Below, piece after piece: positions 32,787-62,070 of a stretch of 64,000 bases of DNA (within the stretch, counting starts at the first letter, position 1; every line of letters starts with the position of its first letter). The stretch is from the NCBI GenBank assembly GCA_001899315.1, contig MOYA01000002.1, positions 597,250-661,249 on the forward strand, read 5' to 3'. The notes under the pieces were generated by a model. The model saw only the letters and a list, made by a program, of their open reading frames with translations. It had not been told where the DNA came from and did no database searches. This DNA comes from Candidatus Obscuribacter phosphatis. Lineage in GTDB: Bacteria; Cyanobacteriota; Vampirovibrionia; Obscuribacterales; Obscuribacteraceae. The translations under genes and the position numbers were made by a program.

Positions 32787-34277
32787 ATGGATAGAGTTGG
32801 TGTTTTCTCCATTCTGCTCATAGTGGCGCTGTTTTCACCTGAAGCTGCGGCCTTTGCCCAGGGGAAGGATGCAAGCACGGATGGAACGCCTCTGCGTCCT
32901 CCCTTATCGCTGTCCCCCTTGAGTCTTACTGCCGAGAAAACTCAAGATCTCGGCTTGGATTTTCAAAAGTTTATCGACAGAGTCGACAGAAACTATCCTA
33001 AATTGATTGGAGCTGTAGCGGAAAAGAAGATTGCTTCTGCTAAGCGCCTGGAGAAGACTGGTGCTTTTGACCCGGTTTTGACTTCGGTTAATGAATTTCT
33101 CAGAGTGCAAGATACTTTTGAGCCTGGTAAGGCTAAAAATGCAGTGCATAACGAGAGTCGCATCGATCTGCTCACCCGCTCGGGCATCAAGGTTTTCACC
33201 GGCATGCGTTTAAATCCCAACGACACTAAGACGCCTTTTGTACCCAGTGGTAAGGCCGGCGAATATTTTGGCGGTGTGGCTGTGCCTTTGGCTCGTGGCT
33301 TGATGATTAACGAAAAGGCCGCTATGGAGAAGCAAGCCAAACTCGGCGAACCTTTAGCCGAGCAGCTCTTTGGTTTGACCAGGCTGGAGGTTTTGCTCAA
33401 GGCGGCGGCTTCTTACTATGAATGTATGGGGGCAAGGGCGCGCCTGGCGGTGGCAAATGACCTGCTTAGTCTGGCAGTGGCGCGCACCGAGCAAATCAAA
33501 GAACGAGTGGTGAGCGGTGATTCTCCTGCTTTAGAGATCAAGGAAGCCGAGCAAGAAATACAGAGACGGCAGTCGATATTTGTTAAGGCCCAGCGCGAAT
33601 TTCAGAAAGCTGCCTATTCGCTTTCGGTTTTTCTTTGGAGCGATGCCGGCACCCCTGGTGGTGTGCCCCGTCTGGAAGAAGTACCGTCTCTTTCGCCCGA
33701 ACCCATACTCTTGTCTGATGAGATCTGGAAGCGAGGCAGGCAGGAAGCACTGGATAAGCGGCCGGAGTTAAAGCGCATTGAGCTTGAGCGCAAACAAGTG
33801 CAGATCGAGTTGAAACTAGCAAAGAATATGATTTTGCCTGCAATAGACGCCTATGTCTCGCAGGGTGCCGATACCGGTCCTCAGGGCATTGGTTATGTCA
33901 TTCGCGGCGGTGTTGCTGTTTCAGCGCCGCTCAGGCAGCGCACCGCTCGTGGTCAAGCCCAGGCGGCTAGCCTCAAGCTTGAGAAATTAGACCAAGAAGA
34001 GAAAGCCGAAAGGCTGCGTATTCAAACTGAAGTGGATGATACGGTCTCGGCTATAAATACTTCATATGAGAGATATGTAGCCAACCTGGAAGAGGTTCGC
34101 AAAGCCCGAGACGTAGAAGAGGGCGAGCGCATGCGTTATGCTGCCGGTGACGGTACTCTCTTTTTGGTTAACCAGAGGGAACGAGCTACAGCGGAAGCTC
34201 GTATGCGCCTGGCGGAAGTGCATACTGAATATTTGCAGGCGATGGCGGCCTTCCGGGCAGTCACTTGCCGTCTTTGA
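32787..34277 (+). CDS. TolC-like outer membrane efflux protein
   Basis: A 496-residue protein with a signal peptide (VFSILLIVALFSPEAAAFAQ). Two repeated OEP-type helical/beta halves follow, with long coiled coils (EIKEAEQEIQRRQSIFVKAQ; RIQTEVDDTVSAINTSYERY). It forms the outer-membrane channel of the preceding ABC-HlyD pair. Its presence supports a double-membrane envelope. A 159-bp gap separates it from the ArsR gene. Confidence 0.88.
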   Translation: MDRVGVFSILLIVALFSPEAAAFAQGKDASTDGTPLRPPLSLSPLSLTAEKTQDLGLDFQKFIDRVDRNYPKLIGAVAEKKIASAKRLEKTGAFDPVLTSVNEFLRVQDTFEPGKAKNAVHNESRIDLLTRSGIKVFTGMRLNPNDTKTPFVPSGKAGEYFGGVAVPLARGLMINEKAAMEKQAKLGEPLAEQLFGLTRLEVLLKAAASYYECMGARARLAVANDLLSLAVARTEQIKERVVSGDSPALEIKEAEQEIQRRQSIFVKAQREFQKAAYSLSVFLWSDAGTPGGVPRLEEVPSLSPEPILLSDEIWKRGRQEALDKRPELKRIELERKQVQIELKLAKNMILPAIDAYVSQGADTGPQGIGYVIRGGVAVSAPLRQRTARGQAQAASLKLEKLDQEEKAERLRIQTEVDDTVSAINTSYERYVANLEEVRKARDVEEGERMRYAAGDGTLFLVNQRERATAEARMRLAEVHTEYLQAMAAFRAVTCRL

Positions 34278-34436: not shown

Positions 34437-34943
34437 ATGCCTTATAGAGCTGTAGTAAGCGGTGAATTAGCTAGGCTGTTTTCGGTTTTGTCCCATGCTA
34501 CCCGCATTAGAATCATTGAAGAATTACAAAAAGAAGACCTGACTGTCGGCACTTTGAAAGAAATTCTAGGCATCACCCATGCGGCGGTATCGCAGCAGCT
34601 CTCGGTTTTGAGAAGCCATCACCTGGTCAGTGAGAAAAGACAGGGCAGAAATGTTTTTTATCATCTAAGAAAGCCTGATCTGGCTAAATGGATCATGGAC
34701 GGTGTGAAATTTATCTTGCCCGACACAAATGAAGTGCAGACAATGGTTTCGGCTATAGAAAGCGCTCGCAGTGCTTGGAACCAAGAGCAGCCCGAAGAAG
34801 CTAAGTCTCGCTCCAAGTCGAGCGGCAAAACTGCCTCCGCAAATCTAAAGGCTGTGGCAAAACCCAGCTCTAAATCAAACGGCAAGGCTGCCGGTGCTAA
34901 GGCTTCTGCGCCAGCAACTCGCAATGGCTCTCGCTCTAGATAG
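34437..34943 (+). CDS. ArsR-family regulator with a basic histone-like tail
   Basis: A 168-residue protein. Residues 1-100 form a winged helix of the ArsR type: LARLFSVLSHATRIRIIEEL, the recognition helix HAAVSQQLSVLRSHHLV, and the wing EKRQGRNVFYHL. No cysteine occurs anywhere, so a thiol metal or redox switch is unlikely. From about residue 115 a Lys/Ser/Ala-rich tail resembles histone H1 or AlgP-type tails and could add non-specific DNA binding. GGGGG lies 6 nt before the ATG. It is convergent with, and overlaps by 8 nt, a paralogous ArsR gene. Confidence 0.88.
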   Translation: MPYRAVVSGELARLFSVLSHATRIRIIEELQKEDLTVGTLKEILGITHAAVSQQLSVLRSHHLVSEKRQGRNVFYHLRKPDLAKWIMDGVKFILPDTNEVQTMVSAIESARSAWNQEQPEEAKSRSKSSGKTASANLKAVAKPSSKSNGKAAGAKASAPATRNGSRSR

Positions 34944-35337
34944 CTCCAGCCTTTTTATCTCTGCCGTTATTCTTGATCTTAGCTTTGCCGTCCGACCATT
35001 TTTCCATTGTGGTTTGAGCCGCTCTCAGCAATAGTTTAGAGTCGCTGTCGTCCGGCACAATAAAGGGAATGGCTTCGGCTAGCCATTCTGATATTTGTTG
35101 ATTGGTGAGGCGGTAGAAGACATGGCGCCCCTCTCTTGTCTCTTTGATGATGCCCTGGGCGCGCATGATGGAAAGGTGCTGCGAGACGCCCGAATGTGAA
35201 ATACCGATTACTTCTTGCAGTGAGTTGACGCAGAGTGGACCGTTGCGCAGTTCGGTCAAGATACGAATGCGGGCGGGGTGTGAAAGCACTGAAAAGAGCT
35301 TGGCTAGGTGCTGAGCTATTAGAATTCGATGAGGCAT
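34936..35337 (-). CDS. ArsR-family regulator, paralogue
   Basis: A 133-residue winged-helix protein closely related to the convergent neighbour: HLAKLFSVLSHPARIRILTE, then HSGVSQHLSIMRAQGIIKET, then REGRHVFYRL. It has a single cysteine (LCVNSL) and a short basic C-terminus. It is divergent from the Mur-like/dabBA operon. The 285-bp space between holds several TGCAAATGTA repeats and palindromes, which makes this gene the prime candidate regulator of that operon and of itself. Confidence 0.88.
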   Translation of the reverse strand: MPHRILIAQHLAKLFSVLSHPARIRILTELRNGPLCVNSLQEVIGISHSGVSQHLSIMRAQGIIKETREGRHVFYRLTNQQISEWLAEAIPFIVPDDSDSKLLLRAAQTTMEKWSDGKAKIKNNGRDKKAGAI

Positions 35338-35508: not shown

Positions 35509-35536
35509 TTGACAGTGCGGGCAAATGTAATATACT
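35509..35536 (+). promoter_or_regulatory. Sigma-70-type promoter of the Mur-like/dabBA operon
   Basis: A consensus TTGACA (35509-35514), a 16-bp spacer and TATACT (35531-35536). The spacer contains GCAAATGTAA, a repeat also found in the upstream cluster, so a repressor bound there would block polymerase. The predicted start site is near 35543. Confidence 0.65.
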
Positions 35537-35549
35537 TGCAGATATATAA

Positions 35550-35568
35550 GTTTTGAAATATTCAAAAC
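35550..35568. promoter_or_regulatory. Perfect 8-3-8 palindrome in the dab operon leader
   Basis: GTTTTGAA, spacer ATA, TTCAAAAC. It lies just downstream of the predicted start site, in the same place relative to the promoter as the palindrome of the carbonic anhydrase gene at 61263. It is a likely operator. Confidence 0.5.
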
Positions 35569-35622
35569 AATGCAAATAACATTCTTGGCTCAAGGGAGCC
35601 GAGACGCGCAGGAGGGTGGTAC

Positions 35623-36519
35623 ATGGTTGCGAAATTCAGCCTCGATGATGTTTGTCTGTCTGCCGGAGGCGTACTTATTCAGGGCGAACGCCCTGAGGGC
35701 AAGGGTGCCATTGTCTATTCTCTTGAAAAGATTCGCCCTGGAGATTGGTTTATAGCCTTTTCCGATTCTATAAAGGATGGGCATGATGAGTTGAAAGAGG
35801 CCAGCGAAAGAGGTGCTTGCGGGGCTATTGTCAAAAGGCGCAGTCGTTACGCCTATGCTCCCCAGGGTTTCCCTCTGGTGGCTGTATCTGATACCAGAAC
35901 TGCTTATTTCGATCTGATAGGCAGTTACTGCAAGTGGGTCAAACCAAGAGTTATTGGTGTCACCGGAACAAGCGGTCGACGCAGTGCCATATTTTTGATG
36001 GCTCATCTATTGCGTGAGAAATACTCGGTACATGTTTCTCTGGTGCAAGGTTTGAATTGGATGGGCTGCGCTGAATCTATATTAGAGATGCCCGAGAAAA
36101 GTGAAGTGCTCATTTTTGAAGCACAGGCTATTGAAAGAGGTGAGATCGCCCAAATTGGCGGTGCTCTCGAACCGGAAATCGCTGTAATCACCGAATGCCG
36201 TCACCCTCTTTCTTCTGCCTCTAGAGACCGCGCCATGGCTGAGCTTTATTGCGAAATTCTTGAAACCCTCTCTCTTGAAGACAAGGCTAGAGCCGTCATT
36301 TTTGATGATTCTAGTGCGGCAAGAGAGCGTGCTAGAGAGATTTTGAGCCCTGAGCATCTGATCTTGCATTCTCAAAGCAACACTGAAGACTTAGATGCCT
36401 CGCTGACCGAGTCGGAGATCTGGTCGGCGGTTCAGGTCGCTCAATTGCTGGGGCTTGAGGAAAACATCATCAAGGAAGTGCTTGCCGAGCTGTGTTCTGA
36501 AGAGCAAGTCAACGCTTGA
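35623..36519 (+). CDS. Degenerate Mur-ligase-like (MurF-like) protein
   Basis: A 298-residue protein. Residues 1-100 resemble the MurF/MurE substrate domain (RPGDWFIAFSDSIKDGHDEL then KEASERGACGAIV). The central domain follows with VIGVTGTSGRRSAIFLMAHL where a Mur ligase has G-T-N-G-K-T-T; the P-loop lysine and the next threonine are both arginine. Family landmarks such as the GEIAQIGGALEPEIAVITEC region remain. The C-terminal ligase domain is absent (usual length about 450). ATP-dependent ligation is therefore unlikely, and a binding or regulatory role is more probable. GGAGG precedes the ATG. It is the first gene before dabB, 45 bp upstream. Confidence 0.7.
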   Translation: MVAKFSLDDVCLSAGGVLIQGERPEGKGAIVYSLEKIRPGDWFIAFSDSIKDGHDELKEASERGACGAIVKRRSRYAYAPQGFPLVAVSDTRTAYFDLIGSYCKWVKPRVIGVTGTSGRRSAIFLMAHLLREKYSVHVSLVQGLNWMGCAESILEMPEKSEVLIFEAQAIERGEIAQIGGALEPEIAVITECRHPLSSASRDRAMAELYCEILETLSLEDKARAVIFDDSSAARERAREILSPEHLILHSQSNTEDLDASLTESEIWSAVQVAQLLGLEENIIKEVLAELCSEEQVNA

Positions 36520-36564
36520 TTTGATTTAAATTCAAGTGCAATCTAATGGAGAACCATCAAAGTT

Positions 36565-37989
36565 ATGTTCGAGTTTTCGCTCTTTTCTCTCACTTTGCTG
36601 AGCGTTCTGCTTTCGTTCGTCGGCAACGAGAATAATCGTTTGCGAGCATTGATCGCTGGTCAAGCAGCGGCTTTCTTTTCTAGTATCGGTCTTGCTGTTA
36701 CGGTCTTCACCGGTCTGGCTCAGTCTCAGTCTGGTCTGCCTGGTCTGGTTATGGTCGACAGTGCTTCGGCAATGGTATCGGTATTGGTATCATTCATCGG
36801 GCTTATCACCCTGGTCTTCAGTGAGCGCTATATGCTTGGTGAGAAGAGTCGTCTCTCTTTTTGTCGACTCTTGGTGCTCATGGCCCTTACCGCTCAGCTG
36901 ACCGCTCTATCTAATCATATGATTTTGAGCTTGCTTGCTTATGGTGCCATCAGCGTACTTCTCTATCTCTTTATGAATTTAAGAGCGGAATCAAGAAAAC
37001 TCGCCGTCTCGGTGCTCAAGTATCATTTGCTGGCTGACTTCTTCTTAGCCTTTGCTTTCGCAACTTTATACTTCGACGGAGGTCCGCTTCATTTCAGCCG
37101 ACTGAAAGACTTTCACGTCAATAGTTCCTTGTTCAATCTCGGCGCTTATCTGCTTGTTCTTTCGCTATGTATCAAGTCGGCTCTCTTTCCCTTTCACCGC
37201 TGGCTGCTCAATACTCTCAACTGTCCCACCCCGCTGTCCGGTTTGATGCATGCCGGTGTGGTGAATATAGCCGGGGTGATGGCTTGCAAAGTCTACCCCG
37301 CCTTGCAGCTTGTGCCCGGCAGTCTCTATGTTTGGGGCGCTCTGGCTCTGGTCTCTGCCATGGTGGGTACGCTCACCATGTCCACTCAGTTTGATGTGAA
37401 GCGCAAGCTGGTTTATTCCACCGTCGGTCAGATGGGTTTCATGTCTTTGCAATGCGCCTGCGGACTCGTTCCGGCGGCAGTCTTCCACCTCATCGCCCAT
37501 GGTCTCTTTAAATGTCATATGTTCTTGCAATCGGGTAGCTCGGTTAACGAAGGTCTGATCAAGAAAGAGTTTGCCGCCATCAAAAAAGACGATGCTGCTT
37601 TGAGCCCTCTTGCTGTCAGTCTGGTCTTTGTCACTTTGGCTTTTGTCATATTCTATGCCTTCGGTACCCAGGCTGTGGCAAGCACTCTCGCTCTTGCGGC
37701 CAGTGTGCCCATTCTTCTCACTATGCCTGCCTTCAGCCGGGTGTCGGCTCCGGTAGCTCTCGCTTTGGCTGCGGCCACGGCTCTGCTTGTCTTTACTTCG
37801 GTCAGTCTGGCTGTCAGTTTTGAGCATGCTCTCAGCATGGTTTCCTTCTCATCTCCGGCATTCTGGCTCTTGCCGCTTGCTTTCGTTTTCTTCCTTGTTT
37901 TTCATTTCTTGGTCAATACGGCTGGAAAAGGCAAAAACCGCCTGGCCGACTGGCTCTATGTACAGGCTCTTTCTGGTTTTTACGTCTAA
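36565..37989 (+). CDS. dabB: DabB: NuoL/NDH-5-like proton channel subunit
   Basis: A 474-residue protein with about 13-14 membrane segments. The proton-conducting transporter signature is seen in KSALFPFHRWLLNTLNCPTP and LHAGVVNIAGVM-type sequence (GLMHAGVVNIAGVM), and in the following KRKLVYSTVGQMGFM. It is shorter than respiratory NuoL and lacks the long lateral helix. With DabA directly downstream it should form the DabAB complex. There cation flow is thought to drive vectorial conversion of CO2 to bicarbonate inside the cell. No other complex I genes are nearby, which supports this over NuoL. Confidence 0.92.
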   Translation: MFEFSLFSLTLLSVLLSFVGNENNRLRALIAGQAAAFFSSIGLAVTVFTGLAQSQSGLPGLVMVDSASAMVSVLVSFIGLITLVFSERYMLGEKSRLSFCRLLVLMALTAQLTALSNHMILSLLAYGAISVLLYLFMNLRAESRKLAVSVLKYHLLADFFLAFAFATLYFDGGPLHFSRLKDFHVNSSLFNLGAYLLVLSLCIKSALFPFHRWLLNTLNCPTPLSGLMHAGVVNIAGVMACKVYPALQLVPGSLYVWGALALVSAMVGTLTMSTQFDVKRKLVYSTVGQMGFMSLQCACGLVPAAVFHLIAHGLFKCHMFLQSGSSVNEGLIKKEFAAIKKDDAALSPLAVSLVFVTLAFVIFYAFGTQAVASTLALAASVPILLTMPAFSRVSAPVALALAAATALLVFTSVSLAVSFEHALSMVSFSSPAFWLLPLAFVFFLVFHFLVNTAGKGKNRLADWLYVQALSGFYV

Positions 37990-38022
37990 TCAGCTCAACT
38001 CAGCTCAATTGAAGGGATAGTC

Positions 38023-40554
38023 ATGATAAAGTCCGGTCAAAATTCTAATGCTGATCAAATTGCTCTTGCCGACCAAATAGCTCAGGCGACCACTTGTCTG
38101 AATGAGTACTGGCCTCTTGAGTCATTCATTGCCCTCAATGCTCTCAAAGGTTATGAAAAGGTTCCGTTTGAGGATGCAATTGAAATTGGTCGCAGTCTTT
38201 TCGGCAGCGAAGGTCACCTCAAGCTTTCTGATTATCGCGCCATGTACGAGACTGGCCGAATTAATCCGGAAGATTTGAAAGAAGCTTTTAAATATATAAA
38301 GGAAAGCCCGCGACTTTCACAGGAAGAGTTCATTGAATTGACCGCTAATTCTTCCTGGAGCAGCTTGCTTGATGGTTACTGCGGCACCTCGCTTGTAAAT
38401 TCGATCAATGAATTGGTGATCAAATGGCTGGGAGCTTACTTTGATAAGACCCAAGCTCAGTTTCAAGTCAAAGAGTCAGGTCTATTTCGCACTTGGCACA
38501 GACTGGTGGTACATGAAAAATCCCTTGATCTTACCTGCCAGTGGCGTGAGCTTTTTGCCGCTCTTCCTGGTCCGCAGCTGACATCACTGGCCGCACTAGA
38601 GTTTTTGTTGCAAAAAATCGGAGTAGGCGAGGCCGATGTAATTCCGTATATGCGGTCACATTTGATTGCCCTGCCCGGCTGGTCAAGCTATCTGCTCTTT
38701 TGTCAGAATCGCCAAGGGGCGAAAGAGTTGATAGTCGATTATCTGGCCATCAGGCTCTTTTATGAATACTGTCTTGCTTCCAGTTGGGTCAATCAAAGTG
38801 CTTCTCGGCAAGGGGGATTTGAAAAGAGTTTTTCACGTCTGAACAGTCTCAAGAAAACAGACGACATTGTGGTCGGTGGTTTTTCGGGGGTGAAAGATGC
38901 TTCGGATGTCTGGCAGGAAGCCTATGAGATCAACTATAGAAACAGACTCTTAGATCAGATTAGCGGCAATTTTGAAAATCGTCGGGAAGCTCAGGGACCT
39001 GATGTCCAGATGGTTTTTTGTATTGATGTGCGCTCCGAGCCTGTGCGCCGGCACCTGGAATTTCTCTCTACCTATGAGACTCTTGGTTTTGCCGGTTTCT
39101 TCGGCATGCCGATGCGTTTCAAACCTCTCGGCGGCGAACGCTCTCTCGATCTTTGCCCGGCTTTGCTCAGTCCCGATAAGGCTGTGAGTGAATGCTGCAG
39201 CCATGAAAAAGAGGCGGAGCGTTATACATCTTTGAAAGCTCTGGGCTCGGCGGCTTTGCTTTTGCGTAAGAAACTGAAGAGTTTCCTAGCCACCAGTTTT
39301 GGTTTGATTGAAGCCTTCGGTGTCTGGTCGGCTTTGCCTCTTTCCGGTAAGACTCTCTTTCCTCAAGGCTTTACTGCCGCTTATGCCAAGCTCTGGCAGG
39401 TGGTCGGCGGCGAACCGACAACCAGTCTCGACCTTAGTGCTTATACGCTTGATGAGAAAATAGCCACTGCCTACGGTGCGCTCTGCGGCACCGGCTTGGC
39501 TGGGCGCGAGCATTTGGCACCGCTAGTGGTGCTTTGTGGACATGGCGCCAGCTCGCAGAACAATCCCTATGCTTCCGCCCTCGATTGTGGTGCCTGCGGT
39601 GGTAATTCCGGTCGCCACAGTGCCAGATTGGCAGCTGCCATTCTCAACGATGAAGAGGTGCGGGCTGGACTAAGCAAAGAGAAGCAGATAAGCATTGCCG
39701 AGACGACTCGTTTTTTGGCATGTGAACACGATACAACCAAAGATACTTTTCGCTTTTTTGATCTCGACAATCTCAAACAGTTCAGTGCCGAGCAAAAGGA
39801 AATCTTTGCCAAGCTGCAGAAAGATCTGGAACTGGTCGGCGCACTGGTCAGAAAAGAGCGGGAGAAGCGCTTACCTTTGTCCAGTCTCAAGGGCTTTAAT
39901 CATCCCTTTGCTCGGGCCTGCGACTGGGCACAAAATGCGCCCGAATGGGGCTTGGCTCGTAATGCCGCCTTTGTTGCGGCGCCGCGCAGCCTTACCCGGG
40001 GTCTCGATCTGGCTGGTCGCACTTTCTTGCATAGCTATGATTGGAAAGCCGATGAGAGCGGTAAAGTGCTGGAGTTGATTATGACCGCACCGATGGTGGT
40101 GGCGCAGTGGATCAATTCTCAGTACTATTTCTCGACCATGGACAACCGCCTGCTTGGCAGCGGCAGCAAGGTCTTGCACAATGTGGTCGGCGACTTCGGC
40201 GTTATGCAGGGGCTGGGTGGAGATCTGCTCTTGGGCTTGCCGAGGCAATCGGTCATGAGCGGTGAAGAAGTGCTTGAACACGAGCCCATGCGACTTTTAG
40301 TCTTGTTGGCGGCACCGGTGCCGATGATCGACAAAGTTTTGTCGGCTCATCCAGCCGTGGCAGATCTGGTCAATAACCGCTGGATCCATCTTGTTTCAGT
40401 CGGCGATGACGGCTCTTTCCAGCAGGCTCTGGGCGTCGGTCGCTGGATCAAGATTGAGAGAAAGCAAGTGCTTGAGAAAGTCGTCATTGACAAAGTCGTC
40501 ATTGACAAAGTCGTCAGTGAGAAAGTCGTCAATGAAAGAGTCGATGCTTTGTAG
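38023..40554 (+). CDS. dabA: DabA: carbonic-anhydrase-like subunit of the DabAB carbon transporter
   Basis: An 843-residue protein of the DUF2309/UPF0753 family. The zinc site is intact: C333 and D335 in FCIDVRSEPVRRHLE, H507 in LCGHGASSQNNPY, and C522 in LDCGACGG. The spacing agrees with the C351-D353-H524-C539 set that I recall for Halothiobacillus DabA. With DabB it converts CO2 to bicarbonate at the cytoplasmic side, coupled to the ion gradient. The last residues are a five-residue repeat (KVVID-type) coded by a 15-bp tandem repeat, outside the conserved fold. The gene starts 33 bp after dabB. Confidence 0.95.
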   Translation: MIKSGQNSNADQIALADQIAQATTCLNEYWPLESFIALNALKGYEKVPFEDAIEIGRSLFGSEGHLKLSDYRAMYETGRINPEDLKEAFKYIKESPRLSQEEFIELTANSSWSSLLDGYCGTSLVNSINELVIKWLGAYFDKTQAQFQVKESGLFRTWHRLVVHEKSLDLTCQWRELFAALPGPQLTSLAALEFLLQKIGVGEADVIPYMRSHLIALPGWSSYLLFCQNRQGAKELIVDYLAIRLFYEYCLASSWVNQSASRQGGFEKSFSRLNSLKKTDDIVVGGFSGVKDASDVWQEAYEINYRNRLLDQISGNFENRREAQGPDVQMVFCIDVRSEPVRRHLEFLSTYETLGFAGFFGMPMRFKPLGGERSLDLCPALLSPDKAVSECCSHEKEAERYTSLKALGSAALLLRKKLKSFLATSFGLIEAFGVWSALPLSGKTLFPQGFTAAYAKLWQVVGGEPTTSLDLSAYTLDEKIATAYGALCGTGLAGREHLAPLVVLCGHGASSQNNPYASALDCGACGGNSGRHSARLAAAILNDEEVRAGLSKEKQISIAETTRFLACEHDTTKDTFRFFDLDNLKQFSAEQKEIFAKLQKDLELVGALVRKEREKRLPLSSLKGFNHPFARACDWAQNAPEWGLARNAAFVAAPRSLTRGLDLAGRTFLHSYDWKADESGKVLELIMTAPMVVAQWINSQYYFSTMDNRLLGSGSKVLHNVVGDFGVMQGLGGDLLLGLPRQSVMSGEEVLEHEPMRLLVLLAAPVPMIDKVLSAHPAVADLVNNRWIHLVSVGDDGSFQQALGVGRWIKIERKQVLEKVVIDKVVIDKVVSEKVVNERVDAL
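40477..40536. repeat. 15-bp tandem repeat at the end of dabA
   Basis: AAAGTCGTC begins at 40477, 40492, 40507 and 40522, an exact 15-bp period, with a degenerate copy after. It codes for EKVVIDKVVIDKVVSEKV at the DabA C-terminus. Unit number could vary between strains without shifting the frame. Confidence 0.85.
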
Positions 40555-41387
40555 TGAACAAAGAAATCGTCCTGGTCACCAAGCATGGCAAGGAGCGGGC
40601 TGTGAGGCGCCCGTTTTGGGTCGGCTTAGGTCAGACAATTTGCACAACCGACTTCGATACCGACTTGCTTGGTACTTTTAGCGGCGAAATCGAGCGACTT
40701 GATTCGCCTCGTGAAACTTGCATCAAGAAAGCAAAGATCGGTTTGGCTGCAGGCTGCCGCTCTGCTCTGGCCAGTGAAGGCAGTTTTGGGCCCCATCCCT
40801 ATCTGCCTTTCATTGCCTCTGATTTTGAGATCATGGCCTATATCGATGACGATGGTACTGAAGTGGTGGAGCAGCTTTTGGCTTATCGCACCAATTATGG
40901 TCATCTTGACTTAAAGCGAGATTTTCATGAAGCAGAGTTGCAGGCTTGGCTGGAGCGAGTGTGCTTTCCCTCTCATGCAGTCATTCTTAAGGTGCTTGAC
41001 GGTGATCAGATTGTCTATCTGGAAAAAGCAATAAACAGCCCTTCTCAGCTGAAAGACTCCTTGGCTTCTGCCGGCAAGCATACCGGGCAACTGCGCCTGG
41101 AGACCGATATGCGTGCCCATTGCAATCCTACGCGCATGGGTGTAATCGGTCGACTGGCAGTGAAGTTGGTGCGCCGTCTGCTCAGTCAATGTCCTTCTTG
41201 CCAGGCTCCTGGCTTTGGCATAGAAGGGCAGGAGCGCGGTCTGCCTTGCTCTTTATGCGGTAATGCCACCGACCTGGTGCTCTTTGATATTTTTGCTTGT
41301 CCCCGCTGTCGCAAGCAAGAACGTCGACCGCGCTCGGATGGTTTAAAGAAGGCTGCGCCGGGAGATTGTCAGTTCTGTAATCCCTAG
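40554..41387 (+). CDS. DUF6671-like zinc-ribbon protein linked to dabA
   Basis: A 277-residue soluble protein whose GTG start overlaps the last base of the dabA stop, so translation is coupled. The N-terminal part (VLVTKHGKERAVRRPFWVGL; ETCIKKAKIGLAAGCRSALA) and the end resemble the family I know as DUF6671. That match is from memory. The C-terminus carries paired zinc knuckles: CPSCQAPGFG, CSLCGN, CPRCRKQE and CQFCNP. An additional RMGVIGRLAVKLVRRL-type helix precedes them. No function is known. Its tight linkage to dabBA suggests a role in carbon uptake or its control. Confidence 0.7.
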   Translation: MNKEIVLVTKHGKERAVRRPFWVGLGQTICTTDFDTDLLGTFSGEIERLDSPRETCIKKAKIGLAAGCRSALASEGSFGPHPYLPFIASDFEIMAYIDDDGTEVVEQLLAYRTNYGHLDLKRDFHEAELQAWLERVCFPSHAVILKVLDGDQIVYLEKAINSPSQLKDSLASAGKHTGQLRLETDMRAHCNPTRMGVIGRLAVKLVRRLLSQCPSCQAPGFGIEGQERGLPCSLCGNATDLVLFDIFACPRCRKQERRPRSDGLKKAAPGDCQFCNP

Positions 41388-61392: not shown

Positions 61393-62070
61393 ATGAAAAA
61401 ACTGATAACCGGTCTGCATCACTTTCAGTCTCATGTCTTTCAGACCCAGAAAGAGCTGTTTGAGCGTCTTTCGCAGGGGCAGTCGCCGGATGCGCTTTTT
61501 ATCACCTGCTCCGATTCTCGTATCAATCCAAACTTGATCACCAATACTCAGCCCGGTGATCTCTTCATCTTGCGTAATGCCGGTAATATTGTCCCTCCCC
61601 ATGGTGCTGCCAACGGCGGCGAAGGCGGCACTATCGAGTTTGCCGTCAGTGCCTTAGGTGTGAAAGATATCATTGTCTGTGGACACAATCTTTGCGGGGC
61701 AATGAAGGGTTTGCTCAAGCCCGAGTCGCTCAAAGAACTGCCGGTGGTCAAAGCTTGGCTTTCTCATGCTGATGCCACCAGAAGAATTGTGCTGGAGAAC
61801 TATAACCTGGAAGAATTAGACGAAGAAGAACTATTGAGTATCGCTGTGCAAGAGAATGTGCTTGTCCAGATTGAAAATCTCAAAACACATCCTTCTGTTG
61901 CAGCCGCTCTTTCGAGGGGTCAACTGACTTTGCATGGCTGGGCTTATAAGATTCAGACCGGTGAGGTCTTTACCTATAACTCCAAGGAAGGTCAATTTTT
62001 GCCCCTCACCGAGGTCTCATATATCAAAGAGAAGAGACGGCCGAGGCTGCAGGCCGGAATCTCAATCTAA
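61393..62070 (+). CDS. Beta-class carbonic anhydrase
   Basis: A 225-residue enzyme converting CO2 and water to bicarbonate. Zinc ligands and the Asp-Arg dyad are visible: C39, D41 and R43 in FITCSDSRINPN, and H98 and C101 in CGHNLCGAMKG. The fold landmarks DLFILRNAGNIVPP and GTIEFAVSALGVKDIIV are also present. It has no signal peptide, so it acts in the cytosol. GGGAG precedes the ATG. The promoter carries a perfect palindrome. Cytosolic activity could dissipate or complement the bicarbonate pool made by DabAB. Confidence 0.95.
   Translation: MKKLITGLHHFQSHVFQTQKELFERLSQGQSPDALFITCSDSRINPNLITNTQPGDLFILRNAGNIVPPHGAANGGEGGTIEFAVSALGVKDIIVCGHNLCGAMKGLLKPESLKELPVVKAWLSHADATRRIVLENYNLEELDEEELLSIAVQENVLVQIENLKTHPSVAAALSRGQLTLHGWAYKIQTGEVFTYNSKEGQFLPLTEVSYIKEKRRPRLQAGISI

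Follow-up and report, generated by a model that had tools for sequence, protein, structure and literature searches.

The closest described counterparts of the locus analysed here are the DAB/DAC inorganic-carbon pumps, among them DAB2 of H. neapolitanus and MpsAB of Staphylococcus. In these systems DabB and DabA make up a membrane-potential-driven, CO2-hydrating complex that loads the cytoplasm with bicarbonate. The DabA subunit requires zinc, and the solved DabA2 of H. neapolitanus carries C351, D353, R355, H524 and C539 at its zinc site (PMC13144422). Outside the order Obscuribacterales, dabAB functions without a Mur-like gene, and the regulation of Dab pumps is an open question (PMC13144422).

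We analysed a 64,000-nt window of the Candidatus Obscuribacter phosphatis assembly (5.49 Mb in 8 contigs), with domain calls for the locus genes made against Pfam and NCBIfam. Obscuribacterales is an order of non-photosynthetic relatives of the Cyanobacteria. By its gene content, the locus at 35623..41387 is an inorganic-carbon-uptake operon of four ORFs, all on the + strand: a Mur-like gene (35623..36519, 298 aa), dabB (36565..37989, 474 aa), dabA (38023..40554, 843 aa) and a DUF6671 gene (40554..41387, 277 aa). The dabB product is a NuoL/Mrp-antiporter-like membrane subunit (Proton_antipo_M PF00361, 126 bits), encoded 45 nt after the Mur-like gene and 33 nt upstream of dabA, and DabA is a beta-CA-like zinc subunit (PF10070, 757 bits). 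An earlier, sequence-only reading of this DNA had described four same-direction genes with short spacing, a DUF6671-like gene whose start overlaps the dabA stop, and a DabA that retains C333, D335, H507 and C522; all of this held at the coordinates given, the TAG stop and GTG start sharing 1 base and R337 being kept in addition. The spacing of these zinc residues equals that in DabA2 of H. neapolitanus. In both core subunits, and in the zinc residues with the distances between them, the window unit agrees with DAB/DAC, but it differs by a Mur-derived first gene, a DUF6671 last gene and ArsR-type regulators. Since no RuBisCO was found in the genome, the bicarbonate presumably goes to anaplerotic and biosynthetic carboxylations. 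At window positions 61492-61968, 20 kb downstream of the operon, lies the single beta-carbonic anhydrase domain (PF00484) found in the genome.

The product of the first gene, here dab-Mur, is recognised by Mur_ligase_M (33 bits, cut-off 24) and by a partial MurF match, and it is a MurF-derived two-domain pseudo-ligase. It shares with MurF the fold of the first two domains and the Mg-ligand Glu, retained in 19/19 dab-Mur proteins, but differs from it at four other features. The P-loop reads GxxGR in place of GxxGK, with Arg in 19/19 dab-Mur and Lys in 15/15 full-length MurF proteins of the order. The site of the carbamoylated lysine, position 209 in the window protein and, by motif, K202 in E. 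coli MurF, is occupied by Tyr in 17/19 and His in 2/19 dab-Mur, while all 15 full-length MurF proteins retain the lysine. The N-domain no longer has its TDTR motif, and nearly all dab-Mur read W-x-L-E/D there; the proteins end just before the VPGR hinge of MurF, Mur_ligase_C (domain 3) being absent. A genuine full-length MurF of 479 aa, with the P-loop GSSGKTTTKE, is encoded elsewhere in the genome. The structure comparison with MurF that had been proposed beforehand bore out the relationship: the AF2 model of dab-Mur (pLDDT 89.8) matches the N-terminal and central domains of MurF in Foldseek with E 1.5e-16 and a query TM of 0.78. The fold and sequence matches also include the MurE-like PAP11 of the plastid RNA polymerase, which likewise has the Mur-ligase fold and is there a component of a complex unrelated to cell-wall synthesis, though PAP11 is MurE-type, full-length and part of another complex. 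An active ligase with a new substrate is ruled out by the missing P-loop Lys, carbamoyl-Lys and domain 3. Since these losses coincide with conservation of the remaining protein, dab-Mur is, as its residues indicate, a conserved, catalytically dead pseudo-ligase rather than a broken gene. The sequence-only reading was thus right about the loss of the P-loop lysine and of the whole C-terminal domain, but its word ‘broken’ does not suit a truncated, Lys-less form that is conserved in 19 genomes under purifying selection.

We followed the gene across a sample of 53 Obscuribacterales genomes, 27 of which were positive in a DabA search and had their dab regions fetched and scanned. A profile built from the Mur-like proteins and run on all 53 genomes returned 19 matches at 383-500 bits, and everything else scored at most 212 bits and consisted of full-length MurF or other Mur proteins. 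The dab-Mur ORFs measure about 286-354 aa, as against 454-520 aa for full-length MurF; the one in G335 sits inside a longer open frame. Every genome with dab-Mur also has dabA (19/27 dabA-positive vs 0/26 dabA-negative genomes; Fisher p 1.9e-8, a descriptive value given that the genomes are related). It had been asked beforehand whether the Mur-like gene is scattered independently of dabBA; in 19/19 genomes, including two in which it lies on a contig fragment, it stands just upstream of dabB, the exception in spacing being locus L066, where a beta-CA-like gene intervenes. In a tree, the dab-Mur proteins form one clade (100/100) that excludes the full-length MurF proteins encoded by those genomes. 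Inside this clade the five from operons with long DabA cluster together (91/95), as would be expected if each operon type has retained its own Mur. Between the window and a congener, dN/dS is 0.095 for Mur, 0.10 for DabB, 0.03 for DabA and 0.13 for DUF6671, so that dab-Mur, at about 0.1, is under purifying selection. Among dabB loci of the order with enough upstream sequence, seven have no Mur-like gene; since dabAB also works elsewhere without one, the Mur-like protein is not essential to the pump. Outside the order, none of nine dab loci from the rest of the phylum had a Mur-like gene next to dab, and among 15 of the 52 plasmid records with Mur matches none was dab-linked by annotation.

The Mur-like gene is preceded by a conserved block with the order TTGACA-N16-TATACTTGCA, then AATATTCAAA and TGCAAAT. 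In the window, a promoter, TTGACA-N16-TATACT (35509..35540, + strand, 11/12 consensus matches), overlaps the conserved TATACTTGCA element, and the operator-like AATATTCAAA / TGCAAAT block (35557..35575, + strand) follows the -10 and precedes the start of the Mur-like gene. Upstream 9-mers, those of the operator-like block included, are common to up to 8/10 regions, whereas 300 rounds of dinucleotide shuffling gave 4 at most. An exact search for the composite pattern returned one copy in each of 12/53 genomes, and its reversed control returned none. Ten of the 12 copies precede the Mur-like gene, in one case at the end of a contig broken off where the gene begins; the other two precede a detached DUF6671-cysD pair and an unrelated short ORF (L250, G335:C12:35272-35303). 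In G338, whose dab locus has no Mur, parts of the block precede dabB instead. One or two ArsR-family genes flank the block, their winged helices scoring 31-47 bits for HTH_5/HTH_20. In the window these are ArsR_p (34437..34943, + strand, HTH_5/HTH_20), which is found upstream in most loci, and ArsR_m (34936..35337, - strand, HTH_5 47 bits), which is divergent from the Mur-like gene and has its promoter region in common with it, an arrangement that recurs in G325, G330, G307, G300, G309, G334, G310 and G332. A TolC-like outer membrane efflux gene at window positions 32787-34277 precedes ArsR_p, and elsewhere in the order this pair is again found beside dab. We infer that the ArsR proteins bind the block, presumably at the operator-like site, and the operon is probably switched by regulators of this type; four plasmid dab-DUF6671 operons have LysR regulators in place of the ArsR genes of the window operon. 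The block's position supports placing the Mur-like gene and dabBA under one shared promoter as a single transcription unit. For the four genes together, a single unit was also what had been suggested from their spacing, and strict co-occurrence, synteny across the order and the conserved promoter/operator upstream of Mur agree with it.

The last gene of the operon belongs to DUF6671 (PF20376, 166 bits, cut-off 23.8). Within the order, DUF6671 occurs in 17 genomes, 17/17 of them dabA-positive, and most copies adjoin dabA; four are detached, and three of these stand beside a CysD-like gene, in two cases with an ArsR gene as well. Among 12 plasmid records with DUF6671 from other phyla, dabBA is close by in 7 and a sodium-dependent bicarbonate permease in 3 others, against a baseline of dabA in 123/72,556 plasmid records, and several of the plasmid dab-DUF6671 operons show a 4-bp overlap. 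A stand-alone CysD-like gene, absent from the window and with no CysN seen beside it, lies 3′ of DUF6671 in eight genomes of the order (L047, L048, L049, L052, L053, L130, L131 and L132) and 5′ of it on two Mesorhizobium plasmids (L172 and L202). Other plasmid neighbourhoods (L174, L175, L177, L178, L181, L203 and L204) have recurrent ilvD, pyrC, TerC and SbtA-type genes, as if they formed a low-bicarbonate or metal-stress island, and a Pseudomonas plasmid gene annotated ‘Mur ligase family’ near DUF6671 proved to be a short fragment, with a piece of a cyanophycin-synthetase gene behind it. Across the phylum, 50/292 sampled genomes have DUF6671 without dabA. Since such genomes are common among photosynthetic cyanobacteria, DUF6671 is not strictly a Dab protein; in 20 DUF6671 regions from that group there was neither dab nor a carbon-transport neighbour common to them, the commonest neighbour, in 6/20, being one that we read as HemJ-like. 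The tie to dabBA that had been proposed for this gene thus stands for the order, with its copies confined to dabA-positive genomes and mostly beside dabA, but fails for the photosynthetic cyanobacteria. On these distributions, DUF6671 is probably a helper that recurs among systems for bicarbonate uptake.

What kind of helper it might be was approached through its residues and fold. Across 45 sequences, eight Cys are invariant, along with H11, K13, D37, R48, K59, E75 and D185-R187. A YjjX/Ham1-type fold was expected from the motifs before the structure comparison was run, and the AF2 model (pLDDT 86.6) returned YjjX/VC0702 for all nine best Foldseek matches, which are weak (best E 6.9e-4, target TM 0.50), with Ham1 and ITPA lower in the list. 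An hhalign profile alignment to Ham1 placed these motifs in register at E 4.5e-4 but at a probability of only 33%, and a single YjjX sequence against the DUF6671 profile gave no significant match. YjjX and Ham1 (RdgB, ITPA) are NTP pyrophosphatases. The predicted N-terminal fold of DUF6671 and the register of its TxHxK and KA motifs would be like theirs; it differs by an extra zinc-ribbon C-terminus, two ribbons in the window protein, and sequence identity is very low, about 11%. As a working hypothesis from the model, the N-domain is therefore probably nucleotide-pyrophosphatase-like, with zinc ribbons attached. The eight invariant Cys, the overlapping position directly after dabA and the zinc requirement of DabA could instead point to a protein that, with the CysD-like partner, inserts zinc or a cofactor into DabA and is not a nucleotide enzyme. 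We think this rather unlikely, since the cluster of other invariant residues looks enzymatic, the predicted fold matches NTP pyrophosphatases, and the protein is also paired with a sodium/bicarbonate permease, a protein not known to depend on zinc.

For the Mur-like protein, the reading we favour is that of a regulatory or assembly partner of DabAB, and we give it an even chance of being right. The first product of the operon has kept the N-terminal and central domains of MurF but has neither the residues for ATP hydrolysis nor the carbamoylated lysine, nor the domain that binds the amino acid; as a non-catalytic partner of the Dab complex it would control the complex or assist its assembly, possibly binding a nucleotide without hydrolysing it. 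Physical contact with DabAB, regulation of the pump, a bound ligand and control by ArsR are what we infer from gene order, co-occurrence, conservation, the lost catalytic residues and the promoter block. More tentatively, the two flanking genes can be read jointly, as a dedicated, non-catalytic regulator, derived from MurF, of a CO2-hydrating membrane pump and a general nucleotide-linked module for control of bicarbonate uptake; the DUF6671 module, sometimes with the stand-alone CysD-like protein, would then be common to Dab and SbtA-type transporters across phyla.

Alternatively, dab-Mur could sense uridine nucleotides or peptidoglycan precursors and so match bicarbonate supply to the synthesis of carbamoyl phosphate, pyrimidines and cell wall. 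Bicarbonate is a substrate for carbamoyl phosphate, and pyrC lies beside DUF6671 on two plasmids. This alternative is of interest because the order has a separate, second MurF-derived pseudo-enzyme family beside pyrB and pyrC (L133-L141, for example G000:C2:154136-155056), with proteins of ∼300 aa that keep a DTR-bearing N-domain and have a degraded central domain. Its genes are divergent from or near pyrB in 7/9 loci examined, with pyrC in 5, and its members could possibly be pyrimidine-linked UDP sensors. In dab-Mur, however, the loss of TDTR makes MurF-like binding of a UDP-sugar doubtful, and for dab-Mur itself we regard this role as unlikely. That dab-Mur scaffolds the machinery of cell-wall synthesis or transcription, and sits in the dab operon for co-expression only, has a precedent in PAP11 as a Mur-type subunit of an unrelated complex; this seems distinctly improbable given that dab-Mur is never away from dab in the 53 genomes and that the Mur type of the long-DabA operons clusters together. 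A bicarbonate-linked sensor had also been suggested earlier, and in an operon that handles CO2 its obvious form would be detection of CO2 or bicarbonate through a lysine carbamate, of the kind that Mur ligases bear near the ATP site, as documented for MurE (PMC3829189); with Tyr or His in 19/19 at the K202-equivalent site, this version is contradicted and highly improbable. Finally, although some dab loci of the order do lack the gene, the single clade, an association without exception across 19 genomes from two families, purifying selection, the invariant residues and a dedicated promoter rule out, to a nearly negligible chance, an accidental neighbour or a decaying gene.

Our partner reading of dab-Mur and the helper reading of DUF6671 both concern proteins outside the described Dab system. 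We found no open-access paper on DUF6671, nor one combining DUF2309 with a Mur ligase; within that literature, the Dab system is the known part and its Mur-like and DUF6671 partners are without a description. Both suggest that CO2/bicarbonate uptake in bacteria has partners not yet recognised, and the operon supplies two new candidate Dab partners with a clear genetic handle. Since DUF6671 accompanies transporters of inorganic carbon in Actinobacteria, Proteobacteria and Obscuribacterales, testing it could assign a function to a widespread domain. The order, moreover, shows two separate conversions of MurF to a pseudo-enzyme.

Several smaller observations concern related genes. The long-type dab operons carry extras: besides the intervening beta-CA-like gene of L066 (4468-5082), in L067 (9530-9862, 4858-6237) dabA is followed by the gene of a P-II-like protein, and a second subunit of antiporter type is also encoded. 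G300 (C197), G301 (C350), G308 (C234) and G332 (C91:10077-11003) have a second full-length MurF-like paralogue, whose P-loop reads GSSGKSTTRD; in G332 it shares its contig with the dab operon.
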